Shown here piece by piece: positions 325 through 14,686 of a stretch of DNA of 21,447 nt. The stretch comes from a virus, in IMG/VR virus record IMGVR_UViG_3300013138_000059, positions 1 to 21,447 of that record; one strand, 5' to 3'. The notes below the pieces were generated by a model. That model did no database searches. It saw only the letters and a list, made by a program, of their open reading frames with translations, and was not told the DNA's origin. The stretch's first letter is position 1. Every line of letters begins with the position of its first letter. Both the position numbers and the translations under genes were made by a program.

Positions 325-511
325 AGACTGCCCAATAGGATATACTTTTTATATAGAAAGCGGAAATAAGATTGTTTGCGTGAAAGCACCAACCAATACA
401 TGTAAAGAATGTATAGGTCTTGAGTCCGCTGAACACTGTTCTGCAATGCCATTATGCACATCAGAATACAGAAAAGACAATAACGATGTAATATTTGTTA
501 AAGTTGATTGA
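308..511 (+). CDS. Small cysteine-containing hypothetical protein (67 aa)
   Basis: The ATG follows an unusually good Shine-Dalgarno sequence for this genome (AAGGAGG about 10 bases upstream). The product has six cysteines, two of them in a CKEC pair near residues 32-35 and others at about 8, 24, 44 and 50. This could form a small zinc-binding or disulfide-stabilised fold, but no complete known zinc-finger pattern is evident. It overlaps the upstream gene by 17 bases and is the last gene before the promoter at 508-537, so it appears to close an upstream operon. No function is proposed. Confidence 0.65.
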   Translation: MELSSKDCPIGYTFYIESGNKIVCVKAPTNTCKECIGLESAEHCSAMPLCTSEYRKDNNDVIFVKVD

Positions 512-537
512 TTTTTAGTTATTTATATTTATCTTTG
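508..537 (+). promoter_or_regulatory. Bacteroidota-type promoter for the replication operon
   Basis: The -7 element TATCTTTG lies at 530-537 and a TTG -33 element at 508-510, with a 19-base spacer. This matches the known Bacteroides housekeeping sigma consensus (TTTG, about 19-21 bases, TAnnTTTG). Transcription should begin near 542-545, leaving a leader of about 10 bases before the initiator ATG at 554. The -33 element overlaps the last codons of the preceding gene. Confidence 0.75.
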
Positions 538-553
538 CAAAAAATATATAATC

Positions 554-1366
554 ATGGGAAGACTTTTTAATAACATCAAAAGAAACTTCACTATAATCCC
601 AAATGAAATACTATACGATAGCAGTATATGTAATAATTCAAAAGTTGTTTTTTGGTATATGGCATCTAAGCCTGATGATTGGGATTTCTTTCACGAAACC
701 ATCAGTTCGGAACTGCACGTTTCTGTCGATAGCGTTCGTAAATATCTTAACGAATTGTGTGATTCTGGATGGGTGACTAAAATAGGTCAGGTTGTAGAGA
801 ACGGCAGATTTAAGAATGTAGAGTATATTCTAAACGAGTCTCCTACATCGGAACAGCCAGACATAAATGATGAAACCGTTGGGGAAAATTTCCGACACGG
901 AAAAAAACCGACACGGAAAATTTCCGATACGGAAAATTTCGGCAACATACTAAATAAAGATATTATAACAAAGAAAGAAGAAGAAGAAATAAATAATATA
1001 AATATATTGCCCGTTAATGATAAATCTGAGAATTGGCGTACAAACTACGGGCTATACGTGTCGGTAGTAAATGATGCGAAAGACAGGCTCATTGATGACA
1101 TTGAATACAAGCTCAAAATGGAAACATGGTATGGTGCTACGCTTGATTACAAATCAACTGTTTTAAAGACCGCTGACTGGTGGTTGACTGAAGATGGATG
1201 GATGTATTCAAAAAAGAAAAAGCGTGGCTCAGCTGACATGCTAAGCACCTTAAAAAGAAACTTGGAACGCAATAGGATATACACTATTGGCGCAACAAAG
1301 CCATTTGGTCAAAAAGCATCAATGGATGATAAGCTTGAAGCGTTTAGAAAGGCGAGAGGTTTATGA
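554..1366 (+). CDS. Replication initiator / helix-turn-helix protein (DnaD- or lambda O-like)
   Basis: Residues 1-95 form a winged helix-turn-helix-like domain of the kind seen at the N-terminus of phage and plasmid initiators in Bacteroidota: an N-terminal basic segment, a helix reading SKVVFWYMASKP, then an HTH region around VSVDSVRKYLNELCDSGW and a short wing. A hydrophilic linker (about 100-155) follows, then a helical C-terminal domain rich in Trp and Lys, plausibly DnaD/DnaT-like and able to load a helicase. The linker region of the gene contains four 16-bp DNA direct repeats. The stop codon overlaps the ATG of the primase-helicase gene (ATGA at 1363-1366), fitting an initiator plus replicative helicase unit. 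The DNA-binding role is inferred from the fold and context; exact family membership is not certain. Confidence 0.75.
   Translation: MGRLFNNIKRNFTIIPNEILYDSSICNNSKVVFWYMASKPDDWDFFHETISSELHVSVDSVRKYLNELCDSGWVTKIGQVVENGRFKNVEYILNESPTSEQPDINDETVGENFRHGKKPTRKISDTENFGNILNKDIITKKEEEEINNINILPVNDKSENWRTNYGLYVSVVNDAKDRLIDDIEYKLKMETWYGATLDYKSTVLKTADWWLTEDGWMYSKKKKRGSADMLSTLKRNLERNRIYTIGATKPFGQKASMDDKLEAFRKARGL
876..939 (+). repeat. Four tandem 16-bp iterons inside the initiator gene
   Basis: Four head-to-tail units begin at 876, 892, 908 and 924. The consensus is CCGACACGGAAAATTT. Units 3 and 4 differ at one base, unit 2 has AAA in place of TTT at its end, and unit 1 is diverged in its middle (CCGTTGGGG). 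Each of units 2-4 contains the inverted pair CCG-n3-CGG. A 16-bp period is not a multiple of three, so the repeats are translated in different frames and give no peptide repeat. This argues that the DNA itself is conserved, as expected for initiator-binding iterons. Confidence 0.85.
940..1010 (+). other. A+T-rich tract beside the iterons, candidate DNA unwinding element of an origin
   Basis: Directly after the last iteron comes a stretch of about 70 bases that is almost entirely A and T with purine-rich runs (the AAGAAGAAG segment and the TAAATAATATAAATATATT segment), all inside the initiator coding sequence. In lambdoid phages, iterons within the O gene are followed by an A+T-rich unwinding region. 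The same arrangement here makes 876-1010 a candidate replication origin. The role is inferred from layout only. Confidence 0.55.
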
Positions 1367-3450
1367 ACGAGATAGAAGTAAGAAAGTTTATAGACATCAT
1401 TCATCCTGACAATGATTTATTTGAGATAAGGGTTATTGATGGTAAGCGTACTATGAGTGGTTATTTCACTGATAGTAAAGATGCTTATGACGCTATTCAA
1501 TCAGTAAGCTCTGGAAATATTTATATTGTTTTTAATAAAATAAAACCTGCATGTTACAGTAGACAACAAAAGGACTTTCTTGTTCCTACACCACGAAGCA
1601 CAACAAGTGATTCTGATGTAACTGACTACCAATGGATATTGATTGACATTGACCCCGATAGACCATCAGACTGTAACTCGTCCGATGAAGAGCTTAAAGA
1701 GGCGTTAAAGGTTGCAAGCAAACTTGGAACGTATTTAAAGTTTAATGGTTTCTCAGACCCTGTTTTTGGAATGTCTGGTAATGGGTATCATTATCTGTAT
1801 AAAGTTAACTTCGCTAATAGCGCAGAGAACCAAACATACGTTAAGAGATTCTTACAGATGCTATCGATACTTTTCAGTAACGATAGAGTAAAAATTGACA
1901 CTTCTGTTTTTTCTCCCGCACAGCTAACGAAGTTACTCGGAACACTATCGAGGAAAGGAACTAATCTTGATGCTGAAAGACCACAGAGGTTGAGCAGGGT
2001 TCTTCACGTACCTGACGTAATAGTTAAAAATGATTTAAAGTTAATTCAAAACATAGCATGTCAGTTACCTGAGCCAGAGAAGCCAACGTATCAGAATAAT
2101 TACGGAAGGGATAGGATGGATATAGATTCATTCATATCATCATCAGGATTAAAGGTAGCAAGAGATACATCAAGTGGTGGTGTAAGGAAGATTATATTAG
2201 ACGAGTGCCCTTTTAACAGCTCACATAAAGCACCAGATTCTGCGTTGTTCGTGTTACCCAATGGCGCTGTTGGTTTTAAATGCCTGCACAATTCATGTGC
2301 TCATCTCGGCTGGCGTGATTTAAGAGCAATGGTTCACCCTGAGTCTTTTGCTCAAAGACATTCTGATGTGTCAAGAGCTATAAGACCACTACCGCCAAAA
2401 GTGTCAGATGAAAGTGCCGATACTGATGAGATAAAGGGTTCTAAATTTTTACAGCTACATCAAATACAGAACTTAGACAGAAGTAAGATTATTACGATAC
2501 CGACTAAGCTTATAGGTGTAGATAAGAGAATTATAGGGCTTAATAAAGGTGAAACATCATTAGTGTCTGGCTCAAGTGGTGGTGGCAAATCTACAATAGT
2601 AAACCAAATATGCCTTAATGCCGTTGATGCTGGATTTAAAGCGAGTATTTGGTCTGGTGAGCTTACTGCCAACAGAATGAAACATTGGATACATTTACAG
2701 GCAGCAGGAAAGCAACATTCATCACCTTCTGCATTTGCAGATAACAGCTTCTACGTGAAAGCATCAGTTGGTGCTAAGATTGACGAGTGGCTGAAAGATA
2801 GGCTTTATATCTACAACAATGATTATGGGAATAAGTTTAGTCAGTTGCTTTTAGATTTAGAAGAGCATGTAAAAGAGTCGTCAATAGATTTAGTTGTGTT
2901 AGATAACCTTATGGCTATGGATATTCTAATGCTTGAGGGAAACTCTAATCAACAGCAATCTAAGATGATTATAGAGCTTACAAATCTTGCAAAGAGGTTG
3001 CAGATACATCTTATACTTATTGCTCACCCACGTAAAGTTGTTTCATTTTTAAGAAAGAATGATATTTCAGGTAGTGCAGACCTTGCCAATGCTGTTGATA
3101 ATGTGTTTATTGTTCATCGTGTAAATAATGACTTCGTAAGAACGGCTGGTGAATTTTTCGGAAATGAAACGGCAGCGAGATACTTCTCTTTCGATAATGT
3201 CATAGAGATTTGTAAGAACAGGGATTGCGGCATTCAGGATGAACTTTTTGGTTTCTTTTTTGAACTTGAAAGTAAAAGGTATCTTAATGAAAGATTTGAA
3301 TCGTATCAGTATGGATGGACTGATGCAATAGAGCAAAAAGAAATCGACATAGAAAGTTATTTTGACTCATTCTCACGACAACTTCCGCAAGAAAGAGAAA
3401 ATGCTTTTTATGCAGAATCATCACAAGTTAAAGGTGAATGTCCTTTTTAA
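1363..3450 (+). CDS. Primase-helicase fusion (AEP primase, zinc-binding-like middle, DnaB/RecA-like helicase)
   Basis: At 695 aa this protein carries both replicative activities. Residues about 1-230 look like an archaeo-eukaryotic (PrimPol-type) primase: motif I LIDIDPD near 92-98 (metal-binding Asp pair), motif II SGNGYHYLY near 138-146, and a motif III-like IDTSVF segment followed by LLGTLSRKG. Residues about 278-315 contain a CPFNSSH...C...C arrangement that could bind zinc. The C-terminal half is a RecA/DnaB-type helicase with Walker A GSSGGGKST near 402-410, Walker B DLVVLDN near 505-511, a LILIAHPRK segment and a SGSADLANAVD motif. It would unwind DNA and prime synthesis at the fork. 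It overlaps the initiator gene by four bases, and a metallophosphoesterase gene follows. Confidence 0.85.
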   Translation: MNEIEVRKFIDIIHPDNDLFEIRVIDGKRTMSGYFTDSKDAYDAIQSVSSGNIYIVFNKIKPACYSRQQKDFLVPTPRSTTSDSDVTDYQWILIDIDPDRPSDCNSSDEELKEALKVASKLGTYLKFNGFSDPVFGMSGNGYHYLYKVNFANSAENQTYVKRFLQMLSILFSNDRVKIDTSVFSPAQLTKLLGTLSRKGTNLDAERPQRLSRVLHVPDVIVKNDLKLIQNIACQLPEPEKPTYQNNYGRDRMDIDSFISSSGLKVARDTSSGGVRKIILDECPFNSSHKAPDSALFVLPNGAVGFKCLHNSCAHLGWRDLRAMVHPESFAQRHSDVSRAIRPLPPKVSDESADTDEIKGSKFLQLHQIQNLDRSKIITIPTKLIGVDKRIIGLNKGETSLVSGSSGGGKSTIVNQICLNAVDAGFKASIWSGELTANRMKHWIHLQAAGKQHSSPSAFADNSFYVKASVGAKIDEWLKDRLYIYNNDYGNKFSQLLLDLEEHVKESSIDLVVLDNLMAMDILMLEGNSNQQQSKMIIELTNLAKRLQIHLILIAHPRKVVSFLRKNDISGSADLANAVDNVFIVHRVNNDFVRTAGEFFGNETAARYFSFDNVIEICKNRDCGIQDELFGFFFELESKRYLNERFESYQYGWTDAIEQKEIDIESYFDSFSRQLPQERENAFYAESSQVKGECPF

Positions 3451-3473
3451 ATTACTAACTTAAATATATAAAT

Positions 3474-4586
3474 ATGTCAAAAGCAAATTACAGACCACGT
3501 GTTAAACAAACCGAGTATGAATTTATTAAAAAAATTACAGATGGTAAATATACAGGAGGTAAAAGACCCAGACTAACAGAAAAACAATACAGAGAACTTA
3601 TTGCTTTCAGAAGTCTTTCAGGTGTAGGAAATGTTTACAAAAAAGACAACTATGTGATGATTAGCAAAAACGAAGAAAGCGAATATAAAGATTTTTTAGA
3701 GCTAACGGCACTGAAAGGTAAATTTGAGTTGTATGATTTAGTTCCGAACCCAACAGCAGGAAACAGAGAAACGGTTGCGATAGCGCAGTTCTCAGACCAA
3801 CATATTGATGAGGTTGTAGAAAAAGATAGTGTTCTCGGAATGAATGAGTATAATTTTGATATAGCTAAAAAGCGTTTTGATACTCACTTTTATAAGTTAA
3901 ACAAACTCATTACACATCATCAGGCTCATTATAACATTAAGAATGTTTTCCTTTTGTTTCAGGGGGATACGATAGGCGGATGGATACATGATGAGCTTGC
4001 TCAAACAAACTCAATGTCACCAAATAAAGCAATCTTTGAAGCTAAAAGCATGTACATTTCAGGACTTAAATATCTTCACGATAATCTTGACGTTGATGAG
4101 ATAACCGTTGTGTGTATATGTGGAAATCACTCACGTGAAACAAAGAAAGTTCAGTTTGCAAACTTTAACGAAACAAATAAAGAGTTTTGGATGTATCTTG
4201 AAATTGAGAATATTTGTAAGATGCTCGGACTGAGCAAGCTTAAATTCATAATACCAAAAGCAGAGATAGCGATACTTAATATCTTCGGCAAAAGGTATGC
4301 TGTCGCACACGGACATCAGTTTAAGTTTGCTGGAGGTATTGGCGGTATATTCCCATCAATGTTACGGTGGTTCGCTAATCTCGCTAAGACGTTAAAGATA
4401 GAGTCTGCGTTCATCGGGCATTGGCATACAAGCATATTTACATCAAAGGTTATCGTTAATGGGTCAATGAAAGGCTATGATGCTTTTGCGTTGTCAAAAA
4501 TGCTTGAGTTTCAACAGCCGTCACAAAACCTTATATTACTTGATAGTGAATTTGGATTGTGTAATTTTCAACCAATAGTATTATGA
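3474..4586 (+). CDS. Metallophosphoesterase (calcineurin-like), probable phage nuclease
   Basis: The 370-residue protein has the dinuclear-metal motifs of the calcineurin-like superfamily in order: SDQH (DxH) near residues 104-107, QGDTIGG (GD) near 162-168, GNHSRE (GNH) near 219-224, HGHQ near 279-282 and GHWH near 316-319. An N-terminal extension of about 95 residues, basic and helical, precedes the catalytic domain and may bind DNA. Members in phage replication operons are often annotated as SbcD/Mre11-like exonucleases; the position directly after the primase-helicase suits a DNA-processing role, but substrate cannot be read from sequence. The gene begins 23 bases after the helicase stop, behind an A+T-rich leader, and its TGA overlaps the next ATG. 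Confidence 0.8.
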   Translation: MSKANYRPRVKQTEYEFIKKITDGKYTGGKRPRLTEKQYRELIAFRSLSGVGNVYKKDNYVMISKNEESEYKDFLELTALKGKFELYDLVPNPTAGNRETVAIAQFSDQHIDEVVEKDSVLGMNEYNFDIAKKRFDTHFYKLNKLITHHQAHYNIKNVFLLFQGDTIGGWIHDELAQTNSMSPNKAIFEAKSMYISGLKYLHDNLDVDEITVVCICGNHSRETKKVQFANFNETNKEFWMYLEIENICKMLGLSKLKFIIPKAEIAILNIFGKRYAVAHGHQFKFAGGIGGIFPSMLRWFANLAKTLKIESAFIGHWHTSIFTSKVIVNGSMKGYDAFALSKMLEFQQPSQNLILLDSEFGLCNFQPIVL

Positions 4587-4738
4587 TACTCGAAAAGAAA
4601 GAACAGATTAAAAGCCTTTGCAAGTTCATAGATAATTTTAATGGTGAACTTGTTATACGTGGTCACGAGATATACAATAACGGAAATCTCGTTGCAACAT
4701 TTAAGGGAAATAAAGCTTATATAGTTTATAGAATATGA
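4583..4738 (+). CDS. Small hypothetical protein (51 aa) between phosphoesterase and Hint-like gene
   Basis: The ATG at 4583 overlaps the TGA of the upstream gene (ATGA), the frame runs to TGA at 4736-4738, and that stop overlaps the next ATG at 4735. Two perfect four-base start/stop overlaps filling a gap exactly are good evidence for a real coupled gene. The product begins MILEKKEQIKSLCKFI (helical) and continues with short alternating hydrophobic segments resembling a small beta-sheet (ELVIRGHEIYNNG, LVATFKGNKAYIVYRI). No family is recognised. Confidence 0.7.
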   Translation: MILEKKEQIKSLCKFIDNFNGELVIRGHEIYNNGNLVATFKGNKAYIVYRI

Positions 4739-5700
4739 TGTACGAAAACCTTTTTTTACCGCAAGAAACGTCATTGGTAACGCTAAGAGGTATTAAAAGA
4801 ATATCAGAGATGAACTCAAAGGATATCATCATTGCGATTGATAGATTTGGGCTCATCTCTTTCGTTAATCCAATAATAGAAAAGCCAGAAAGTTTTGGCA
4901 TATTATGTAACTTTAAAACAAGTTATTTTGATTTCTCTGTTGGTCTCGATAAAAAGATATTCGTTAATAATGATTTCGATATGACGCTTTCGACTGGTGA
5001 TATATGCGATACCCTTACTGGGTATAACATATCAATGACATCAGGATGCTGTTATTCTGATTCAAACAACCTTAGATATGCTGATTGGGCTATCGTGCTT
5101 TACGCCCTTGCAATGCTCAAACGAACTAAGTATGTAGATGATGATATACGCATCATATCAAGAGGTGGCTCTAAGTCTTCATTTATAGAATCATATCTAT
5201 CAAGGTCTGGGGTTAAATTCAGGAAAGAGCCTTTCGGAAAACGAAACAGAGTAGCCTTTTATATAGGCTATAAAGGAAAGATAAAAAGACGCATATCGAA
5301 AGATTTTGTAATGATGTGTAACTCACGTCAGGCTAAGCTTTTCGTTGAAACATGTATGTTGTTTGACTCAGTTCCCAACAGAGATAGATGCGAGCGTGGG
5401 CATATATTCCTTTGTCAGCCACAAAACATATCTCTTATGATAGCTTTGTGCATGAAGGCTGGATACAGAGTACATGCTGGAAATGTGTATGGGATATCAC
5501 AATACAAATATGACTCTATAATTGTCTCCAATCATAGCGGTTGGGATACAAACATTATAAGCCATACAATATCTCAAAACACGTCAAATGATGTGCACGT
5601 TATTATATCGGACGAGTATGTTGGATTTTTAGCTGTGTATGATTCATGTATTGTAGTGTTACCAAACGATATGTATCTTAATAAATTTAAAGCCGTTTAA
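4735..5700 (+). CDS. Degenerate Hint/intein-like protein with possible homing-endonuclease middle region
   Basis: The first 35 residues follow the pattern of a Hint (hedgehog/intein) N-terminus: FLPQETSLVTLRGIKRISEM resembles the family form C-L-P-x-x-T-x-V-x-T-x-x-G-x-K-x-I. The catalytic first Cys is replaced by Phe 7. A block-B-like segment follows (SVGLDKKIFV) in which the expected His is Asp. The middle 200 residues, around FVMMCNSRQAKLFVETCMLFD and later LMIALCMKAGYRV, resemble the layout of a LAGLIDADG-type endonuclease without clear acidic active-site motifs. The C-terminus (FLAVYDSCIVVLPN) recalls intein blocks F/G with HN changed to PN. If correct, it is a free-standing, splicing-dead relative. 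Homology is judged by eye and is uncertain. It overlaps the preceding small gene by four bases. Confidence 0.5.
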   Translation: MMYENLFLPQETSLVTLRGIKRISEMNSKDIIIAIDRFGLISFVNPIIEKPESFGILCNFKTSYFDFSVGLDKKIFVNNDFDMTLSTGDICDTLTGYNISMTSGCCYSDSNNLRYADWAIVLYALAMLKRTKYVDDDIRIISRGGSKSSFIESYLSRSGVKFRKEPFGKRNRVAFYIGYKGKIKRRISKDFVMMCNSRQAKLFVETCMLFDSVPNRDRCERGHIFLCQPQNISLMIALCMKAGYRVHAGNVYGISQYKYDSIIVSNHSGWDTNIISHTISQNTSNDVHVIISDEYVGFLAVYDSCIVVLPNDMYLNKFKAV

Positions 5701-5721
5701 GTTTATTTAACTATAATTATT

Positions 5722-5751
5722 TTTGTGTTATATATATTATTATTATTTTTG
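5722..5751 (+). promoter_or_regulatory. Bacteroidota-type promoter upstream of the SSB-like gene
   Basis: TATTTTTG at 5744-5751 fits the TAnnTTTG -7 element, and TTTG at 5722-5725 fits the -33 element with an 18-base spacer. The surrounding 75-base gap is almost all A and T. Transcription would start near 5757, about 20 bases before the ATG at 5776. A separate promoter would give the SSB-like gene its own expression level. Confidence 0.6.
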
Positions 5752-5775
5752 TATCATTAAATTAAATTTTTATTT

Positions 5776-6144
5776 ATGGAATTAGTTACAATCAGGCTTT
5801 CACGCCTTGGAAAAGATTGCGTAGTTGCTAACGAAAATGGAAATCAGTTTCTCGATTTATCAAAAGTTGCATCTATTAGTAAAGGGTATAATGACGAACT
5901 TGAATTAAAGATTGCGGTTCGTAAAGCAAGAAAGAAAACAACAACAGGGAAGCAATGTCTTTTGGTTTCTGAGGTTCAAACAAGAGAACAGATTGACGCA
6001 AAAGAAGCGCCTGTGTGGATTGGTGATGGTATTATTCTTTATGAGGATAATCTTGGTAAAGACTACGAGCAAGCAAATCAGCAGGGTCAATCGCAACACC
6101 AAACGATGCCACCACCCCCTGCTGGAAAACCACTACCATTTTAA
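5776..6144 (+). CDS. Possible single-stranded DNA-binding-like protein (122 aa)
   Basis: The protein has a compact N-terminal region of predicted beta-strands (about 1-95), then a Gln/Ser/Pro-rich flexible tail ending AGKPLPF. A disordered tail ending in a hydrophobic LPF or IPF tip is the signature by which bacterial and phage SSB proteins recruit partners. Size, the replication neighbourhood (helicase upstream, DUF1064 nuclease downstream) and its own promoter also suit an SSB. The tail is not acidic as in canonical SSB, and I cannot show an OB fold from sequence alone, so it could be another small replication or recombination accessory protein. The next gene starts 13 bases downstream. Confidence 0.4.
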   Translation: MELVTIRLSRLGKDCVVANENGNQFLDLSKVASISKGYNDELELKIAVRKARKKTTTGKQCLLVSEVQTREQIDAKEAPVWIGDGIILYEDNLGKDYEQANQQGQSQHQTMPPPPAGKPLPF

Positions 6145-6157
6145 ATTGTAGGATGTG

Positions 6158-6541
6158 ATGAAAAGAAGTAAGTATAATTCGTCAAAGGTAGTAATCGGTG
6201 ATAGTAAGTATGACAGCAAGAGGGAATATCATAGGCATTTGGTTCTATTAGACAGAGAAAAGAGAGGTGAAATATGGGGATTGAGAAGACAAGTCGAGTT
6301 CGTATTACTACCACCTGTATCTGTGACGGATTATACTATACTTAAAACAAAAGTCAAAGTAACTGAGCGAAACATACAACAACCGATTAAATACTTTGCT
6401 GACTTTGTTTATTATGAGAATGGTGAATATATTGTTGAGGATGTAAAAATATCAAAGAAGCTACAACCGTCAGAGTACGTGTTAAAAAAGAAAATGTTGT
6501 TTTATCGTTATGGAATAGTTATTAGAGAGTATTATGGATGA
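6158..6541 (+). CDS. DUF1064-family nuclease-like protein
   Basis: The 127-residue product matches the DUF1064 phage family, thought to have a PD-(D/E)XK/VRR-like nuclease fold. It has KYDSKREYHRHLVLL near the N-terminus (SK-E-Y motif with the conserved Glu), a GEIWGLRRQVEFVLL strand-turn segment, then YFADFVYYENGEYIVEDVK carrying the Asp and the E-x-K triad, and a C-terminal KKKMLFYRYGI. Family members lie in replication/recombination modules and are proposed to cut branched or recombination DNA; that activity is inferred here. I prefer ATG 6158 with AGGA at 6150-6153; a GTG at 6155 is in frame one codon earlier and too close to that site. The end overlaps the next gene by 8 bases. Confidence 0.75.
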   Translation: MKRSKYNSSKVVIGDSKYDSKREYHRHLVLLDREKRGEIWGLRRQVEFVLLPPVSVTDYTILKTKVKVTERNIQQPIKYFADFVYYENGEYIVEDVKISKKLQPSEYVLKKKMLFYRYGIVIREYYG

Positions 6542-6890
6542 TTCAGAAAAACTGCGTAGTGCCGAAGATTTAGTATTCGCTATGCAAAAGAAAAATGAGG
6601 CGTTAGAAAGAGTTATTGATGATTATAGGAAGATTATTGATATTCTTAAATCGGAAGTTTATAAACAAAAAAATAGATTACAAATGAAAAGAATTTTAAA
6701 GTTTTTTGGTCTTGTTTCCTACAAGGAGTACAAAGAAACCATGCAAGTATTGATTGATACTAACGTTAATTCATTGGGGATGTATATTGCTGCGTTGTTA
6801 AGAATTGATGAGCTTGAAGAAGAAAACGAAAAGCCGAAAGCGTTAAAAAAAGATGCTAAGGTTGCTGTTAAGAAGGAGAAGAAGGATTAA
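6534..6890 (+). CDS. Coiled-coil hypothetical protein (118 aa)
   Basis: The sequence is strongly helical with heptad-like spacing through residues 1-50 (EALERVIDDYRKIIDILKSE and onward), a middle hydrophobic helix, and a lysine-rich C-terminal tail ending in alternating Lys/Glu with KKEKKD. This suggests a short coiled-coil oligomer with a basic tail that could contact nucleic acid, but no family is recognised. It starts inside the DUF1064 gene (8-base overlap), so it belongs to the same operon, and a terminator-like hairpin follows 22 bases after its stop. Confidence 0.65.
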   Translation: MDDSEKLRSAEDLVFAMQKKNEALERVIDDYRKIIDILKSEVYKQKNRLQMKRILKFFGLVSYKEYKETMQVLIDTNVNSLGMYIAALLRIDELEEENEKPKALKKDAKVAVKKEKKD

Positions 6891-6912
6891 GGTTGTGTTG
6901 TTGTTGTTTTAT

Positions 6913-6943
6913 GGGGGAGTATTTGTTATTCCCCTATTTGTTT
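6913..6943 (+). terminator. Candidate Rho-independent terminator before the glycosyltransferase gene
   Basis: GGGGGA at 6913-6918 pairs with TTCCCC at 6929-6934 (6 bp including one G-T), with a 10-base loop and the T-rich tail TATTTGTTT. It sits between the stop at 6890 and the ATG at 6950. The tail is interrupted and the stem short, so termination may be partial. Confidence 0.4.
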
Positions 6944-6949
6944 AAAGAC

Positions 6950-8092
6950 ATGAATAAAATAAAGATTATAGCGTTAGAGTGCGGGAATGGGGTATCATAT
7001 CACAGGGTAATAAAGCCTATGCAGAGGCTTATGAGTATATATCCTGATGATTACGAAATTCATTTTATGAACGTAAAAGATAAAGACATATCTAAGCTTC
7101 CTAACCCAGTTGAACATAAGTTTGATATTATATATTTCAATACTATACTTGGAATAGATGAGAAAAGCCCACTATTAAGGTATCTTGAAGTATGCCTTAT
7201 TCATGGTGCCAAGATTGTATTGGACATAGATGATTATTTCAAGTTTGGTCGCTCAGTAGCTGTAAAGAAAACAACTGCCGATAAACATCACGAGCTTGTT
7301 CCAGAGGCTATAAAGGCTGCCGATTATGTTACAACTACAACTGAAACATACAGACAAAAGCTTCTTGAATTGAACAACAATGTTTATGTGTTTCCTAATT
7401 TCGCTGATAGTTATGACGAACAGTATGTTGTAAAGAAAACACATAGTGATGTTATAAGGATAGGCGTTACTGGCTCTGTTATGCACAAGTATGATGTTAG
7501 ACTGTTGAATATGGTTAGCATGTTATTAAAGCGTGACGGTCTTATTGATAGGGTTAAATTTGTATTATGCGGTTACTCTAACAATATCTATTATCACGAA
7601 TACGAAAAAATAATAACATCTGATTATAGGATTGTTTCACGACAATACAAACATATACTTGAGAACAAGCAAGTCAAAGATGTTGATATGGATGGTCAGC
7701 CATATAGGCGTGTATCATGGAGAAATACAAATGAATACATGACTATATACAACGACATAGATGTGCTATTAGCACCGCTTGAAAATACGGTATTCAACGA
7801 AGCGAAGTCTCAAATTAAATACATTGAAGCTGGATACATGGATACCCTGTTTATAGGTTCTGACGTTCCATCGTATAATATGTTTGTAGAAGACGGCAAA
7901 AACGGATTCCTATGTAAGAGTTCAAAGGATTTTTATGAGACAATAAAGAAGGTTATTCTTGGCTGGGAATCGACAAATGGGTTTAGAAATATAAGAGATA
8001 ATGCTCGCATTGACATAGAAAATTATTATGAATCAATACCAGTAACAAGTGATAGGGATATATTTTTTAAAAGTATTGTAAATGGAAAATAA
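6950..8092 (+). CDS. Glycosyltransferase, GT4-like (GT-B fold)
   Basis: The protein starts MNKIKIIALECGNGVSYHRV, a Rossmann-type strand and Gly-rich turn typical of GT-B enzymes in phages. A KIVLDIDDYF segment (about 93-102) is common in phage glycosyltransferases. The C-terminal donor domain shows IRIGVTGSVMHKYDVRLL, DVLLAPLENTVFNEAKSQIKYIEAG (an E-x7-E-like motif binding the nucleotide sugar) and GFLCKSSKDFYETIKK. It probably transfers a sugar from a nucleotide-sugar donor; the acceptor could be modified phage DNA, a host surface glycan or a virion protein. The frame is open upstream to a TTG at 6893 and an ATG at 6911, but those codons lie across the hairpin and encode an unusual Cys-run, so ATG 6950 is preferred (380 aa). 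It overlaps the next gene by 11 bases. Confidence 0.75.
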   Translation: MNKIKIIALECGNGVSYHRVIKPMQRLMSIYPDDYEIHFMNVKDKDISKLPNPVEHKFDIIYFNTILGIDEKSPLLRYLEVCLIHGAKIVLDIDDYFKFGRSVAVKKTTADKHHELVPEAIKAADYVTTTTETYRQKLLELNNNVYVFPNFADSYDEQYVVKKTHSDVIRIGVTGSVMHKYDVRLLNMVSMLLKRDGLIDRVKFVLCGYSNNIYYHEYEKIITSDYRIVSRQYKHILENKQVKDVDMDGQPYRRVSWRNTNEYMTIYNDIDVLLAPLENTVFNEAKSQIKYIEAGYMDTLFIGSDVPSYNMFVEDGKNGFLCKSSKDFYETIKKVILGWESTNGFRNIRDNARIDIENYYESIPVTSDRDIFFKSIVNGK

Positions 8093-8960
8093 AGCAAGGA
8101 GATATAATTCAGGTAAAACAAGATATGAGCTTATACCGCATTTTGCGTTAAATCAATTAGCAGATGTTTATACACGTGGTGCTCATAAGTATAGCATTTA
8201 CGAAGACGCCAATGGGAATAAGCTAAAAGGATCCGAGATAGCACTTGCCGATGCGTCTTCCTGTAAGTTAATCGAAGATGGTGCTGATAATTGGAGAAGT
8301 GGATTATCTTGGACTGGTGCTTTGGATTCAGTAAAAAGACATATAGAGGCTTATAGGAATGGTGAGGATTACGACAAAGAACTCGGAACTCTTCATCTTG
8401 CTAATGCTGCTTGGGGTCTTTTTGCTCTTATGGAATATTATAAGATATACCCACAGGGTGATGATAGAAAGCACGCATATCTTAACAGACCAAAAATAGG
8501 TCTTGATATTGATGATGTTCTATCTGACTTTTGCGGTAAATGGTGTTCACATTTTAATGCTGAAATGCCTGAATCTTGGGGATTTGATAGAAACATAGGA
8601 GATAAATTCAGCTCACTCGATAAAGATTTTTGGCTAAGTATTGAGCCAAAAGTAAATCCATCAGATATACCGTTTGAGCCACATTGCTATATTACGTCAA
8701 GGTCTATACCTATTGAATGGACGATAGAGTGGTTAGATAAAAACAAATTTCCAACAGCACCTGTTTATTCGATAGGATTTGACGAATCCAAAGTTGATGT
8801 GGCAAAAAAATCTGGATGCGACATATTTGTAGATGATAGATATGAAAACTTTGTTGAGCTTAATAAAAACGGCATTTGCTGTTACCTTTATGATATGCCA
8901 CATAACAGGCGTTATGATGTTGGCTATAAGAGAATAAAATCATTAAATGAATTGATTTGA
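8082..8960 (+). CDS. Fusion: dATP/dGTP diphosphohydrolase domain + HAD 5'-nucleotidase domain
   Basis: Residues about 1-125 match the dATP/dGTP diphosphohydrolase N-terminal family (formerly DUF5664, related to phage MazZ): NSGKTRYELIPHFALNQLAD, a GAHKY motif, DGADNWRSGLSW and a helical segment RHIEAYRNGEDYD leading to GTLHLANAAWG. This domain hydrolyses a purine dNTP to dNMP and pyrophosphate. Residues about 136-292 are a HAD phosphatase: GLDIDDVLSDF (nucleophile DxD near 142-144), YITSRS (motif II), and a Lys followed by DIFVDD (motifs III/IV), like 5'(3')-deoxyribonucleotidases. Joined, the domains could take a dNTP to nucleoside in two steps. Neighbours are a glycosyltransferase and a phosphoesterase. 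No PurZ gene is seen in the window. Domain calls are by motif; substrates are inferred. Confidence 0.75.
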   Translation: MENKARRYNSGKTRYELIPHFALNQLADVYTRGAHKYSIYEDANGNKLKGSEIALADASSCKLIEDGADNWRSGLSWTGALDSVKRHIEAYRNGEDYDKELGTLHLANAAWGLFALMEYYKIYPQGDDRKHAYLNRPKIGLDIDDVLSDFCGKWCSHFNAEMPESWGFDRNIGDKFSSLDKDFWLSIEPKVNPSDIPFEPHCYITSRSIPIEWTIEWLDKNKFPTAPVYSIGFDESKVDVAKKSGCDIFVDDRYENFVELNKNGICCYLYDMPHNRRYDVGYKRIKSLNELI

Positions 8961-8974
8961 AATAATTTGATAAG

Positions 8975-9472
8975 ATGAGTAAAGTATATGTAATTTCAGA
9001 CCTACACTTAGGTCATGTAAATATGGCTATAAAAAGAGGCTTCTCTTCCATAGCCGAACATGATGCCCATATTATTAAAATGTGGAACAGCGTTGTTACC
9101 AAAAGAGATGTTGTTTATATATTGGGCGACATCACTATGAGCAAAGCTGGTTTCTATCCGATGCTCAATGCTCTTAAAGGTGAGAAGAAAGTTATCCTTG
9201 GAAACCATGATAAACAAGCACACGTAAAGTTATTGCTTAATTATGTGAACTCAGTGGCTGGGATGATTAAATATCGTGGATGGTTTTTAACTCATTGCCC
9301 TATACATACAAATGAACTACAGCATTGCAAAGGGAATGTTCACGGTCATGTTCATGAAAAGACAATAGACGACAACAGGTATATAAATGTTTCATGTGAA
9401 GCATTAGACTATACACCTGCATTACTCGATGATTTAATTAACATTCGCAATTCGCAAATCGAAAATAAATAG
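8975..9472 (+). CDS. Small metallophosphoesterase (calcineurin-like)
   Basis: The 165-residue protein has all five metal-site motifs in a minimal domain: ISDLHLGH near residues 7-14, LGDIT near 50-54, GNHD near 75-78, a THCP segment near 106-109 and GHVH near 124-127. It resembles the compact phage/bacterial phosphoesterases often labelled YfcE-like or Icc-like. It follows the dNTP-hydrolase/nucleotidase gene by 14 bases and may act on nucleotides or another small phosphodiester; no substrate can be assigned. It has no DNA-binding extension, unlike the larger phosphoesterase at 3474-4586. Confidence 0.8.
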   Translation: MSKVYVISDLHLGHVNMAIKRGFSSIAEHDAHIIKMWNSVVTKRDVVYILGDITMSKAGFYPMLNALKGEKKVILGNHDKQAHVKLLLNYVNSVAGMIKYRGWFLTHCPIHTNELQHCKGNVHGHVHEKTIDDNRYINVSCEALDYTPALLDDLINIRNSQIENK

Positions 9473-9475
9473 CAT

Positions 9476-9643
9476 ATGTCAAGAAATTATAAGGTATATA
9501 ACCCTGGCGAACAATACGTTAGGATTAAAGCAACTGGACAAGTTGGTGAGGCTTACGAACGATTAATGCACTTTGTTAGTGTGTTCTTTTATGGTAGCAA
9601 TACGTGTTTCTATTACAAGATAGAAGAGGTGGAATTTATATAG
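9476..9643 (+). CDS. Small hypothetical protein (55 aa)
   Basis: An ATG at 9476, three bases after the phosphoesterase stop, opens a 55-codon frame ending TAG at 9641-9643, only six bases before the next gene. It fills the gap almost exactly. The product (starting MSRNYKVYNPGEQYVRIKATG) has a probable short beta-strand N-terminus, a helical centre and an acidic C-terminal VEFI. No cysteine motif or membrane segment; no family recognised. Confidence 0.65.
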   Translation: MSRNYKVYNPGEQYVRIKATGQVGEAYERLMHFVSVFFYGSNTCFYYKIEEVEFI

Positions 9644-9649
9644 AAACAA

Positions 9650-10012
9650 ATGGAAAATACTAATACAAAAGAGTGGCATAATATGAATGGAGAGATTTTT
9701 AAACATAAAAGAATTTTAGGGTTTTATCCCTATTATTGGGCAGTAATACTTATCGCTAAGATTAAATTGTTCTTTGGATATAAATATGATAAGTCCATTA
9801 TACCTATCGGGCATTATTGCTATGCACCCGATAACGAAAAGAATATGAAAGAAACTGGATTCATATACCATATTATCCCATGCGAGCATTATGTTCCATT
9901 AGGTAAAGGATGGAACGCATGTAAGTACAATGGGATAATTACTGACGATATGGTCTTTGATGACCAGTGTAAGATTTGTGGAGAAAGATATAACGATACT
10001 AAAAATGATTAA
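9650..10012 (+). CDS. Hypothetical protein with a hydrophobic segment and CxxC-type motifs (120 aa)
   Basis: Residues about 24-42 form a hydrophobic stretch (FYPYYWAVILIAKIKLFF) that could be an interfacial or membrane helix. The C-terminal half contains HYCYAP, IIPCEHYVPLGKGWNAC and a terminal CKICG, so Cys/His pairs could bind zinc. The order hydrophobic helix then cysteine-rich domain suggests a membrane-associated small zinc protein, but this is only a reading of composition. It lies in a run of small genes with three-base spacing to the next gene. Confidence 0.6.
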   Translation: MENTNTKEWHNMNGEIFKHKRILGFYPYYWAVILIAKIKLFFGYKYDKSIIPIGHYCYAPDNEKNMKETGFIYHIIPCEHYVPLGKGWNACKYNGIITDDMVFDDQCKICGERYNDTKND

Positions 10013-10015
10013 GTT

Positions 10016-10198
10016 ATGGAAAATATTTTATATTTCATATTAGCATACGTGTTAGGATTTTGGATTGCCTACGCTATATCCGTTCACTATATAAACAAAT
10101 ATAGGACGAACGATAATCCAATAATAGGTGCTTTGTTTAGCTGGATTACAGTCCTGATTGTAATATTAGCTGAAATAGGAAAGGGAAAATCAAAATGA
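10016..10198 (+). CDS. Small membrane protein with two predicted transmembrane segments (60 aa)
   Basis: Two hydrophobic helices are visible: residues about 3-23 (ILYFILAYVLGFWIAYAIS) and about 36-54 (IIGALFSWITVLIVILAEI), joined by a short polar loop with charged residues, and a basic tail GKGKSK. The shape is that of a small hairpin membrane protein. It could act in superinfection exclusion or host membrane alteration, but no family is recognised. The gene overlaps the next by four bases (ATGA). Confidence 0.6.
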   Translation: MENILYFILAYVLGFWIAYAISVHYINKYRTNDNPIIGALFSWITVLIVILAEIGKGKSK

Positions 10199-10467
10199 GA
10201 ACGATATATGTTATCTTTACAAATACAGAATGGGGTATAAGCCCGTTAAAAGCTTTTAAAAACAAATCAGACGCTACGAGGTATTGCGCTAAGTATAATA
10301 GGATACTCAAAAAATACAAAGAGTATTACAAGAAGTACGAAGTAAATAAGCTTGGGTTGCTTGATTGGATAGACGATAAATACATCGGAATGGGTGTCTA
10401 CGATAAATGGTATTCAGTAAAAAATACATATAATTGCTCTTACGAACAGGTTAATTACATTGATTAA
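10195..10467 (+). CDS. Hypothetical protein (90 aa)
   Basis: The ATG overlaps the TGA of the membrane-protein gene. The product is rich in Tyr and Lys (a KKYKEYYKKYE stretch near residues 37-48) with an N-terminal strand-like IYVIFTNTEWG followed by KAFKNKSDATRYCAKYN, which resembles the layout of small proteins that read or bind a ligand through a beta-alpha-beta unit. No recognised family or active-site motif. Confidence 0.6.
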   Translation: MRTIYVIFTNTEWGISPLKAFKNKSDATRYCAKYNRILKKYKEYYKKYEVNKLGLLDWIDDKYIGMGVYDKWYSVKNTYNCSYEQVNYID

Positions 10468-10478
10468 TTTATTTTATT

Positions 10479-10667
10479 ATGAATCATATAAAGTGTACCA
10501 TAACAGAGCTTTCGACCGAATTACCATTACAAAAAGTAGATAGAATTGAGATTATTAGTGATATAGGTCGATTATTCGTGAAATGTGAAAACGAAAGCAT
10601 CATCAATAAGATTGTATCTCAGGATAATGACCGAACGATTAAGATATTTCTAAATAAAAATTGTTAA
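10479..10667 (+). CDS. Small hypothetical protein (62 aa)
   Basis: A 62-residue product of alternating strands and polar turns (IKCTITELS, VDRIEIISDIGRLFVKCE, RTIKIFLNKNC), consistent with a small all-beta protein. It begins 11 bases after the preceding gene behind an A+T-rich leader and is the last protein gene before the promoter and RNA locus at 10681-11100. No family recognised. Confidence 0.55.
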   Translation: MNHIKCTITELSTELPLQKVDRIEIISDIGRLFVKCENESIINKIVSQDNDRTIKIFLNKNC

Positions 10668-10680
10668 AAATATCTAATTG

Positions 10681-10712
10681 TTTTGCTAATTAGAAATATA
10701 TTTGTACCTTTG
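10681..10712 (+). promoter_or_regulatory. Strong Bacteroidota-type promoter of the RNA locus
   Basis: TACCTTTG at 10705-10712 is a full TAnnTTTG -7 element, and TTTTG at 10681-10685 supplies the -33 element with a 19-base spacer. Transcription should begin at about 10716-10718 with GAACGGGG. No protein gene starts within 400 bases downstream, apart from a 9-codon ORF, so the immediate product is an RNA. Confidence 0.8.
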
Positions 10713-10716
10713 TACT

Positions 10717-10806
10717 GAACGGGGTCGCACTCGTTTTGAGTACATCCCGTTTATGAGAATACCCATTGAACAGTTTGCGACCCCTGTTTGATGGGTGTTC
10801 TTTTTT
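10717..10806 (+). ncRNA. Short leader RNA or sRNA with mutually exclusive pairings (attenuator-like)
   Basis: Three competing helices can be drawn. First, GAACGGG (10717-10723) pairs with CCCGTTT (10746-10752), enclosing a small ACTC/GAGT hairpin (10729-10732 with 10738-10741). Second, GGGGTCGCA (10721-10729) is perfectly complementary to TGCGACCCC (10776-10784). Third, a 17-bp terminator stem uses 10757-10773 and 10784-10800. The second helix uses the loop of the third and cannot easily form with it, because no linker remains between 10783 and 10784. The first competes with the second for the same G residues. This is the logic of an attenuator or riboswitch, or of a roughly 90-base phage sRNA. 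No known family is recognised. Confidence 0.6.
10757..10806 (+). terminator. Rho-independent terminator, 17-bp stem plus T6
   Basis: The arm at 10757-10773 (GAATACCCATTGAACAG) pairs with 10784-10800 over 17 consecutive positions, allowing G-T pairs, with a 10-base loop (10774-10783). Six T residues follow at 10801-10806. This is the strongest intrinsic terminator in the window, only about 40 bases after the expected transcription start. Confidence 0.8.
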
Positions 10807-10879
10807 ACGCCCAAGACATAGTGCTTTTTTAGTCCTGTTTTTGGCACATAATAAATATTAAGAACGAAATGGTAGATAC

Positions 10880-11100
10880 GAACGTTTGTCAATGCTAAAA
10901 ACTTGATGCTCTGTCCAACCTGACAACATCGACCTCATGCGTATTGGCAATCGACAGAAAACGCAAAAGAAGTAGCTAATCTTTTGGTCTTGTGAAATAC
11001 AAGGAGAGGGGCTGAAGTGTCGTGGTCTGCTCGGAATAAGCCGATGATGTTCTCTGGATATTAAGGCTTATTTCATACTCAAGTGCCAAAGCATGAGGGG
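10880..11100 (+). ncRNA. Candidate structured non-coding RNA of unknown family
   Basis: Within a region that has no convincing protein gene, many complementary arms nest. CCTCATGC (10933-10940) pairs with GCATGAGG (11091-11098). TTGGCA (10944-10949) then pairs with TGCCAA (11084-11089), continuing the same helix across a 3x1 internal loop. Enclosed are hairpins CAAAAGA/TCTTTTG (10964-10970 with 10980-10986), TCTTGT/ACAAGG (10988-10993 with 10999-11004, loop GAAAT) and GGAATAAGCC/GGCTTATTTC (11033-11042 with 11065-11074, 10 bp). CGACA/TGTCG (10952-10956 with 11018-11022) may close an inner multiloop. A TTGTCA/TGACAA pair (10886-10891 with 10921-10926) lies just outside. The result resembles a multibranched RNA. 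It would be transcribed by read-through from 10681-10712, and no separate promoter was seen. Confidence 0.55.
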
Positions 11101-11140
11101 TAATGGACTAACTATATTGTTAAACTAAAAATACAGTAAA

Positions 11141-11341
11141 ATGAACAATGAATTGAAAATAATTTTACATGAGTACAGCTACAAATGTGCTGACGGATGT
11201 TGTGATAATTACGGTACTATAACATATGTTAATGGTGTGGACTTGCCATTTCATGACCAAGATGCGGATAATATTTTAAAACAAGTACTTGAGTATTTGG
11301 GATACGATGTTACAATAGAGCATTCTTGGGATATTAGATGA
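11141..11341 (+). CDS. Small hypothetical protein (66 aa) downstream of the RNA locus
   Basis: The ATG follows an A-rich leader (AAATACAGTAAA), the usual form in this genome. The product is acidic, with a YKCADGCCDNYGTITYVNG segment (three cysteines near residues 16-21) and a helical C-terminal half (DADNILKQVLEYLGYDV). Similar short acidic proteins with a CxDGCCDxYG-type segment occur in phages, but I cannot name a family. If the attenuator at 10717-10806 is real, this is the first gene under its control. Confidence 0.6.
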   Translation: MNNELKIILHEYSYKCADGCCDNYGTITYVNGVDLPFHDQDADNILKQVLEYLGYDVTIEHSWDIR

Positions 11342-11357
11342 AGAATAAATATAAAAA

Positions 11358-11585
11358 ATGTGTAATATGATTTTAGAAAAAACAAAAGAAATACTTCTTC
11401 CTATTGGAAGTAGAAACGTATCTGTAAGTTACGATGGTGTATATACAGTTGTAGGTTACGATACAGAGAGGAGAAAAGGATGTCAATGGTTTGTTATAGG
11501 GGAGTACGATATTAGCTTTTACGATACAAATAGAGTACATGGGCAACATATGGTTTTATTAAAGCTAATAGAAAAGGGGAGTTAA
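11358..11585 (+). CDS. Small hypothetical protein (75 aa), last plus-strand gene
   Basis: A 75-residue all-beta-looking protein (VSVSYDGVYTVVGYDTE, CQWFVIGEYDISFYD) with no recognised family. An in-frame ATG three codons later (11367) is an equally good start. The TAA stop at 11583-11585 lies in the loop of the terminator shared with the converging gene and overlaps that gene's stop codon. Confidence 0.6.
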   Translation: MCNMILEKTKEILLPIGSRNVSVSYDGVYTVVGYDTERRKGCQWFVIGEYDISFYDTNRVHGQHMVLLKLIEKGS

Positions 11586-11602
11586 TTCTCCCCTTCTTTT
11601 TT
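11574..11602. terminator. Bidirectional terminator between the converging halves
   Basis: AAGGGGAG (11574-11581) pairs with CTCCCCTT (11588-11595), with loop TTAATT. CTTTTTT follows on the plus strand, and on the minus strand the stem is followed by a short TTTTC run. It would stop both plus- and minus-strand transcripts. The loop's TTAA contains the stop codons of both neighbouring genes. Confidence 0.85.
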
Positions 11603-11851
11603 GTTATAAGCAAGCACATCACTTGTTTTCATTAGTGCGTATTCTTTTCCATCCACATCAATAACCTGCTTAATGTACAAAGGAAAGAACACCTCATCAC
11701 CGATACCAAACGGACAATTAGATTGACAGATATACTTAACAATCCCATGTCGTATTTTTATCTCATCTTGCGTCATTGGGAATAATATCCCCCCAACGCT
11801 AACAGTATAATCAGACTCTTCGACTAATACGTTTCCATTAATTAACCTCAT
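11582..11851 (-). CDS. GroES-like co-chaperonin
   Basis: At 89 residues this is close to the 95-100 residues of GroES. The order of features matches Cpn10: an N-terminal strand INGNVLVEE, a short mobile-loop region ending in GGILFP (the conserved G-G-I-hydrophobic segment that contacts GroEL), an RHGIVKYI strand, IGDEVFFPLY (the G-D-x-V-x-F motif), then DVDGKEYALMKTSDVLAYNKK (the family's D-G-K-E-Y...D-V/I-L-A ending). Phage co-chaperonins such as T4 gp31 replace host GroES when folding a large capsid protein. Its place at the distal end of the late cassette suits assembly. It overlaps the upstream gene by 14 bases and is the last minus-strand gene before the terminator. Confidence 0.75.
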   Translation of the reverse strand: MRLINGNVLVEESDYTVSVGGILFPMTQDEIKIRHGIVKYICQSNCPFGIGDEVFFPLYIKQVIDVDGKEYALMKTSDVLAYNKKEGEN

Positions 11852-12290
11852 ATTCTTTTAATAGTTCTTTAAATTTATTAATACTTTCTTTCATCTTTTT
11901 ATCTCTATTGATTATAAGCTTTGATTTTATAAATCTTTTTATTGACTTGATTCTATTTTTAAAACGATACATAAACTCTTTGTATGGAGTTCTCTTTTTA
12001 TGCCTGTACCCCATAAGATATGTTTTATAATTTATGTTTGGATACCCATTCATTGAATGCTCAAGAACGTAGTCGTAATACTTAAAGTATTCTCCTTTTG
12101 GAATATCGTTGTCAACATCATAGCGTATATCGTCAAAATCAAAGTAGTAATCACCATACGACACAACACCACCGATATAATAGCATTCGTCTTTTATGTC
12201 GCTCATATTAAGTTCCCAATCGTTCTTATTTAGGAAATTGAGAACATAATTATCTCTTATCGTTTCATACGATTTTTTTATCCACGTCAC
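11838..12290 (-). CDS. Hypothetical protein (150 aa)
   Basis: The start is a GTG at 12290 with a good GGAGG Shine-Dalgarno about 8 bases upstream; its GTGA overlaps the stop of the glycosyltransferase gene. The N-terminal two-thirds is acidic and Tyr/Asp-rich (a GDYYFDFDDIRYDVDND stretch) and the C-terminus is a long basic helix (KNRIKSIKRFIKSKLIINRDKK). The gene's position between a GT2 enzyme and the co-chaperonin suggests a late accessory function, but nothing identifies it. It overlaps the co-chaperonin start by 14 bases. Confidence 0.65.
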   Translation of the reverse strand: MTWIKKSYETIRDNYVLNFLNKNDWELNMSDIKDECYYIGGVVSYGDYYFDFDDIRYDVDNDIPKGEYFKYYDYVLEHSMNGYPNINYKTYLMGYRHKKRTPYKEFMYRFKNRIKSIKRFIKSKLIINRDKKMKESINKFKELLKEYEVN

Positions 12291-12904
12291 AGCTCACTCC
12301 TCCCTTTATTGTTCGTTTCAACCATACATGCAACTAAGTCAGACCATATAACCATTTCTACCTTGTCTTCAATGTCTTTGATGAACTCTCCGTCAGCCGT
12401 GTATGTATTAGACCACTCCACTAATTTAGCGTGCTTAGAGTGAACGCAAAAGCATGGAATTCCTATATCACCAACAGTAATCTCTCTACCGAAAGAATAT
12501 GATGGTATTAACTTACCGAATGCGTGCATCCTGAATAGCGTTAGTGCATTATCAAGTAAAGCAGTAGATATATGTTCGAGCACATATTTATCCATTAGAT
12601 AATCGTCATCGTCAATACAGTATATGTATCCATCTTCAACCATTTCTATTAATCGGTTAAAATACCGATTATACTCACATATCGACTTTTCAACCGATAC
12701 ATCATTTGAGTAATAGAGATTAGCGTGGCATATATGGGCATCGCCAATGCCATTTTCTTTTACATATTGATATGTTAAATCATCATCAACAGAAACAAAT
12801 ATCTCATAGTTTTTGTATGTTTGAGATGCTATTGAATCGAGAAGTCTTTTGAACTTAACTGGTCGTCTATGCGTTCTTATCAGTATATTTATCTTTTTAT
12901 CCAT
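12287..12904 (-). CDS. Glycosyltransferase, GT2-like (GT-A fold)
   Basis: The 205-residue protein starts INILIRTHRRPVKFKRLLDS, then IASQTYKNYEIFVSVDDD, the classic GT2 N-terminus (nucleotide-sugar binding strand, then the first acidic cluster). YIYCIDDDDYL near residues 94-104 supplies the DXD metal/donor motif. It is shorter than many GT2 enzymes and lacks a membrane anchor, as expected for phage-encoded forms. It lies within the tail/late cassette, so a virion protein is a reasonable acceptor; that is inference. Its ATG lies within the last codons of a small upstream gene, and its stop overlaps the next start. Confidence 0.8.
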   Translation of the reverse strand: MDKKINILIRTHRRPVKFKRLLDSIASQTYKNYEIFVSVDDDLTYQYVKENGIGDAHICHANLYYSNDVSVEKSICEYNRYFNRLIEMVEDGYIYCIDDDDYLMDKYVLEHISTALLDNALTLFRMHAFGKLIPSYSFGREITVGDIGIPCFCVHSKHAKLVEWSNTYTADGEFIKDIEDKVEMVIWSDLVACMVETNNKGRSEL

Positions 12905-13017
12905 TGTATATCATCATTTATAATTCTTTCTGAGTTTTGCATTATTATCATATCTGGTGATAACGATGCAAAGCATATGATAATCCATGGTTGCACGCAA
13001 CACTTCGAGATATCCAT
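12889..13017 (-). CDS. Possible small protein (42 aa) coupled to the GT2 gene
   Basis: An ATG at 13017 opens a 42-codon frame ending TAA at 12889-12891, overlapping the start of the GT2 gene by 16 bases. It fills most of the 200-base gap between 12904 and 13106. The peptide begins MDISKCCVQPWIIICF and ends in an amphipathic charged segment (SERIINDDIQWIKR). A different frame through the same stretch also encodes 37 residues (13061 down to 12948), so the choice rests on the overlap with the downstream start. Function unknown. Confidence 0.45.
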   Translation of the reverse strand: MDISKCCVQPWIIICFASLSPDMIIMQNSERIINDDIQWIKR

Positions 13018-13069
13018 TTTCTCTTTTTTGTTCTCATCACTATGACTATCTTACCTGTCATATAAAGTA

Positions 13070-13098
13070 ATTAATGGCTGACCCGTAAAAGCCAGCCA
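13070..13098 (-). terminator. Weak hairpin after the minus-strand gene ending at 13106
   Basis: TGGCTG (13075-13080) pairs with CAGCCA (13093-13098) over six positions with a 12-base loop. On the minus strand it is followed by TTAATTACTTTATATG, which is only moderately T-rich. It lies just after the stop codon of the gene at 13106-13513, so a partial terminator or an mRNA end-protecting hairpin is possible. Confidence 0.35.
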
Positions 13099-13105
13099 AT
13101 TAAAT

Positions 13106-14536: not shown

Positions 14537-14561
14537 ATGTTATATGTTTTATAATGAACTA

Positions 14562-14569
14562 CAAATATA
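14562..14569 (-). promoter_or_regulatory. Possible minus-strand promoter element upstream of the distal tail genes
   Basis: On the minus strand TATATTTG matches the TAnnTTTG -7 element and sits 26 bases before the ATG of the gene at 14060-14536. I do not see a good -33 TTTG at the expected distance, so it is tentative. It would re-initiate transcription just after the terminator at 14626-14655. Confidence 0.4.
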
Positions 14570-14625
14570 CGAAATAAATTATAATATTAATGATATTTAA
14601 CATTTTTTATACTAATTATGTAAAT

Positions 14626-14655
14626 AAAAAATAGCCTACTTTCACAAGCAAGCTA
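14626..14655 (-). terminator. Rho-independent terminator after the tape measure gene
   Basis: On the minus strand a 10-bp stem (arms at 14655-14646 and 14641-14632, two G-T pairs, loop GTGA) is followed by six T residues and more T-rich sequence. It sits about 30 bases past the tape measure stop at 14687. Confidence 0.75.
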
Positions 14656-14686
14656 CTCTTTCAATTTATATATTTGAGGGTATAAA

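Follow-up and report, generated by a model that had tools for sequence, protein, structure and literature searches.

The largest non-coding gap of the phage contig analysed here begins with a Bacteroidota-type promoter and a compact, strongly folded RNA element. We tentatively read positions 10717-10807 as a transcription attenuator that lies close to the promoter of a short early unit; this reading, held at a little under even confidence, is our first choice for the 5′ element, with a free small RNA ranked second. As modelled, the element as a whole (10682-10807) is very likely a transcribed and terminated RNA, and the promoter and short RNA together most likely constitute either a stop-or-go leader or a free small RNA. 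Nothing in the region analysed calls for a new category.

The window, 21,447 nt in length, is the whole of an IMG/VR virus record and represents a single 21.4-kb phage contig. Genes on the + strand (1-11585) include those for a replication initiator-like protein, a DnaB-like helicase, an exonuclease-like phosphoesterase and a Holliday-junction-resolvase-like protein, and those on the - strand (11582 onward) include GroES-like, glycosyltransferase-like and tape measure protein genes. Bacteroides phage C3_41T2LP is the closest named phage by helicase (42%) and also has distant tape measure and structural genes in common with the contig. Because the closest named helicase relative belongs to this phage, the host is with good probability a member of the Bacteroidota. 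The early/late convergent junction is occupied by a GroES/Cpn10-like protein gene (11582-11848, - strand; Pfam Cpn10, E 6e-10). Two glycosyltransferase-like genes are present, at 6893-8092 (group 1) and 12287-12904 (- strand, family 2), and at 8082-8960 a dATP/dGTP diphosphohydrolase N-terminal domain is fused to a 5′-nucleotidase-like (NT5C) domain, a fusion that suggests altered nucleotide pools. No reverse transcriptase, which would have pointed to a retron association, was found among the scanned proteins.

The gap spans 473 nt (10668-11140) between a 62-aa ORF ending at 10667 and a 66-aa ORF starting at 11141, and is by far the largest of the contig, ahead of gaps of 201 and 150 nt. It contains no ORF longer than 60 aa on the + strand and a single unsupported 68-aa ORF on the - strand. 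A Pfam search of its stop-free frames returned zero supported matches, and its main minus-strand frame had no tblastn match in phages. The sequence-only reading had described this region as devoid of a convincing protein gene, and these searches bear it out. A disrupted gene was rejected as a candidate on the same grounds, the stop-free frames lacking supported Pfam or tblastn matches. The flanking arms that bear on the idea of an invertible promoter are just 76% complementary. The features of the leader and of the presumed transcription unit are as follows.

10682-10712, + strand: Bacteroidota-type promoter by consensus match, TTTG (10682-10685), N19 spacer and TACCTTTG (10705-10712)
10716-10753, + strand: hairpin 1 (anti-antiterminator), -16.4 kcal/mol, from folding
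10717-10729, + strand: switch strand GAACGGGGTCGCA, common to hairpin 1 and the antiterminator, from folding
10753-10791, + strand: 12-codon ORF MRIPIEQFATPV, which runs over the 5′ arm and loop of the terminator; a possible (weak) leader peptide
10755-10807, + strand: intrinsic terminator, 19-bp stem 10755-10773/10784-10802 followed by a U-run, -24.7 kcal/mol
10776-10788 (10776-10789 for the pairing with one bulge), + strand: TGCGACCCC(T)GTTT, the partner of the switch strand in the antiterminator, located in the loop and first part of the 3′ arm of the terminator, from folding and shuffles
11141-11341, + strand: 66-aa ORF whose phage family has CxDGCC..Y.T as an invariant motif, from family search and alignment
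11358-11585, + strand: 75-aa ORF, last in the presumed transcription unit, from the ORF list
11574-11600, + strand: predicted terminator of the presumed unit, opposing the convergent late genes

The promoter is complete, as had been proposed, and agrees with the Bacteroides consensus TTTG / TAnnTTTG (PMC7366714). Two other gaps, those immediately preceding ORFs 554 and 5776, also contain candidate promoters of the same type (508-537 and 5722-5751), and these two further sites make it likely that the phage employs promoters of the TTTG/TAnnTTTG type. The distance from the -7 box to the first ORF is 428 nt at the gap promoter, and the ORF 554 and 5776 units have leaders of ∼15-25 nt. A promoter scan from the 10755-10807 terminator to the 66-aa ORF on the same strand revealed no second Bacteroidota-type promoter.

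With a start site placed from the -7 box, the predicted RNA would have its 5′ end at ∼10717 and, together with the terminator, a length of ∼88 nt (88-90 nt). The terminator hairpin (10755-10802) is the strongest in the contig. The segment 10713-10812 folds with z = -6.3, none of 200 shuffles being as good, and in a sliding-window scan the 5′ element was the most extreme of 284 windows (z -8.2; mean -0.5, sd 1.3).

The switch strand GAACGGGGTCGCA can also pair with TGCGACCCC(T)GTTT to form a 13-bp helix with one bulge. Growing transcripts were folded stepwise in order to compare hairpin 1, the antiterminator and the terminator. Hairpin 1 is the best fold until the transcript reaches 10780, the antiterminator is the minimum-energy structure for ends at ∼10783-10792, and hairpin 1 plus the terminator prevail from 10795. 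For transcript ends from 10786 the antiterminator amounts to -22.2 to -24.1 kcal/mol, as against -17.0 for hairpin 1 alone. The complementarity is rare by chance: shuffling the upstream part 20,000 times reproduced its 9-nt core in 4 cases, and 5 of 3,000 shuffles gave an alternative fold that had 9 or more such pairs and an equally low energy. The leader had been called switch-like from inspection, and mutually exclusive helices that exceed chance in shuffles, one of them optimal in mid-transcription, substantiate that description.

Attenuators and riboswitch expression platforms are typically built from competing terminator and antiterminator helices. The element has in common with these systems an anti-antiterminator hairpin, a promoter-proximal intrinsic terminator and an antiterminator that is mutually exclusive with it, and its promoter, terminator and downstream ORF (11141) lie in the correct order. 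From the sequence elements, competing helices and predicted energies, we infer that the element is used in the cell, responds to a trigger and regulates the genes downstream. Transcription would start at ∼10717 and by default stop after ∼88-90 nt at the 19-bp terminator, giving a stable two-hairpin RNA. Under an alternative condition, set perhaps by slowing of the polymerase, by binding of a protein or ligand, or by a ribosome that occupies the 12-codon ORF, the 5′ strand would instead pair with its partner in the terminator, dissolving hairpin 1 and delaying or blocking the terminator. Polymerase would then continue across the structured 300-nt stretch and on to the 66-aa and 75-aa genes.

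Several observations weigh against this mechanism. At full length the terminated state is favoured by ∼18 kcal/mol, so any switch could only be kinetic or factor-driven. In contrast to known attenuators and riboswitches, the element has no recognisable ligand domain (by the Rfam searches below), T-box or convincing leader peptide, and its antiterminator pairs chiefly with the terminator loop. Coding evidence was not found for the 12-codon ORF, whose U-rich, paired start site is poor for Bacteroidota initiation. Finally, no homolog that might show conservation of either helix was found, and such a leader is absent upstream of the relatives of the downstream gene that were inspected.

A free-standing phage small RNA of ∼88 nt is the closest competitor, somewhat less probable in our estimate. 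Promoter, 5′ hairpin and terminator would then be the entire gene and read-through incidental; the GUCGCA/UGCGAC match would serve as an internal kissing contact, or the loops would pair with host or phage mRNA. The element has its own promoter and intrinsic terminator and, apart from the 12-codon one, no ORF. The 8-9-nt match lies almost entirely inside the 10-nt terminator loop, and the predicted energies permit a 6-bp kissing contact with both hairpins intact. Validated Bacteroides intergenic sRNAs are usually marked by a transcription start site and an intrinsic terminator (PMC7366714). The element resembles such RNAs, for example GibS (PMC7366714), in possessing both signals in an intergenic gap, but differs in being phage-borne and in having neither a sequence homolog nor a target found. 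For neither loop did pairing with phage mRNA starts exceed the chance level (15 of 200 shuffles in each case), and a small RNA leaves unexplained both the 300-nt distance to the next gene and the lack of own promoters for the two genes that follow.

The inverted repeat GGGGTCGCA/TGCGACCCC could also act at the DNA level, as two operators immediately downstream of the promoter, rather than as part of an RNA switch. The contig has these two copies only, each within 75 bp of the promoter. They fall, however, precisely within the loop of the terminator and within hairpin 1, placements for which an operator would have no need, and we regard this reading as very improbable. The weakest candidate is an RNA anti-CRISPR in which hairpin 1 imitates a type I-C repeat (GTCGCACTC...GAGT): the 9 nt GTCGCACTC are similar to what we take to be the start of type I-C repeats, but the 3′ handle GTGGATTGAAA does not adjoin the stem (10721-10771 read directly), near matches of GTGGATTGAAA in the contig are at chance level, the inner stem of hairpin 1 contains a C-A mismatch, and Rfam CRISPR-repeat families gave zero matches, so that we give it almost no credence. 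Phage-encoded Racrs exist (PMC10651486). The present element resembles them as a small phage RNA that has a hairpin, its own promoter and a short likeness to a type I-C repeat, but it lacks the 3′ repeat handle and its stem is imperfect.

Folding of the remainder of the gap predicts the following structures.

10829-11111, + strand: predicted multibranched region that includes two side hairpins, of moderate significance
10829-10835/11105-11111, + strand: closing helix of this region (P 0.75)
10837-10846/10893-10902, + strand: helix within it
10903-10908/10927-10932, + strand: helix within it
10933-10940/11091-11098 with 10944-10949/11084-11089, + strand: stem helices
11033-11042/11065-11074, + strand: helix within it

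Most of the arms that the sequence-only reading had named are recovered: the 8-bp CCTCATGC/GCATGAGG (P 1.00) and 6-bp TTGGCA/TGCCAA (P 0.93) parts of its closing helix, the 10-bp GGAATAAGCC/GGCTTATTTC hairpin (P 0.95), to which an 8-bp helix is added (P 0.97), and the 6-bp CTTGTG/TACAAG hairpin (P 0.85). The 7-bp CAAAAGA/TCTTTTG arm drops out, being absent from the minimum-energy fold. In a region of this size, chance alone should produce perfect 7-8-nt complementary arms (an estimated ∼1.7 8-mers). Three 300-nt frames gave z-scores of -2.5, -4.4 and -3.2 against a contig background with mean -0.8, sd 1.4 and minimum -5.2 (103 windows). The predicted fold thus exceeds chance modestly and is suggestive only.

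Two readings of this stretch, both doubtful, can be set against each other. It may belong to a new phage family of functional, structured RNAs and be made by read-through, which is compatible with either reading of the 5′ element. Several helices with P >0.9, the z-scores of -2.5 to -4.4, a G+C content of 0.445 (10900-11099) versus ∼0.30 in nearby genes and the lack of Pfam or tblastn support for coding favour this possibility, but background windows reach z -5.2, and a single-sequence covariance model found no further matches in 490 kb of related loci and 396 genomes. The stretch resembles GOLLD, ROOL and OLE, which are ornate, large structured non-coding RNAs, some of them phage-carried (PMC12286853); it differs from them in extending over ∼300 nt only, in having no Rfam match and in a fold predicted from a single sequence. 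A new large phage RNA family from 10829-11111 is possible but unsupported.

Alternatively, these 300 nt could be remnants of a lost gene or of acquired DNA, with the fold a by-product of that origin. Their composition is unlike that of the flanks, and a 9-bp direct repeat, ATTGTTAAA, brackets the gap (10660-10668 and 11116-11124); the repeat could be an insertion footprint or chance, ∼1 such pair being expected by chance by our estimate. Against such an origin, no frame resembles a known domain, and the shuffles preserve dinucleotide content, so the z-scores do not come from G+C alone. An improbable further proposal is a two-stage riboregulator, in which the terminator/antiterminator gate would release a ∼285-nt multibranched RNA of a new family acting as a product, not as a leader of the 66-aa gene.

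As had been recommended, the gap region was searched against Rfam 15; even permissive thresholds yielded chance matches only, none near the gathering score. There was no match to the covariance models for group I/II introns, tmRNA, 6S or RNase P RNA or to the aptamer families (riboswitch, T-box), and a tRNA/tmRNA search found none. The earlier impression that the RNA belongs to no known family thus holds within the scope of Rfam 15. BLASTN against INPHARED phages and PLSDB plasmids produced short, mostly AT-rich or marginal matches and no homolog. IMG/VR pattern and structure searches gave none, or chance matches in unrelated, mostly G+C-richer phages. No homolog was detected in 396 Bacteroidota genomes by DNA and with two covariance models, in searches run without a positive control, and a further 48 sources yielded none either. 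Single-sequence covariance models R1 and R2 had no credible match in the loci or the 396 Bacteroidota genomes; the lone R1 match, where a hairpin overlaps a 520-aa ORF at its start, was rejected. By the neighbour-gene route, helicase relatives have only the helicase in common with the contig, one adding a tape measure and a structural gene. These negatives are not proof of absence, as the collections may lack close relatives of the window.

Relatives of the 66-aa ORF occur at 28 viral (IMG/VR) loci and on one Saprospiraceae contig; C, DGCC, Y, T and L residues are invariant in the family, which has no name in Pfam or PHROGs. The protein is possibly metal-binding or redox-active. The 160 nt before the gene in 22 of the 28 viral relatives and in the bacterial one contain no such leader, and in most of them the gene lies close behind the preceding gene. 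The leader therefore belongs to this phage and not to the gene family, and the suggested tie between the RNA and the 66-residue ORF is not conserved.

To our knowledge, regulatory RNAs of Bacteroidota phages are little described. The clean promoter, terminator and antiterminator set would allow RNA-level control in a phage of this kind to be tested cheaply, and a CxDGCC family widespread in phages here sits behind an unusual leader; the downstream RNA, if real, would be a new family. The two runner-up non-coding gaps, 12905-13105 (201 nt) and 14537-14686 (150 nt), are both on the - strand, and the latter contains a minus-strand hairpin and U-run near 14631.
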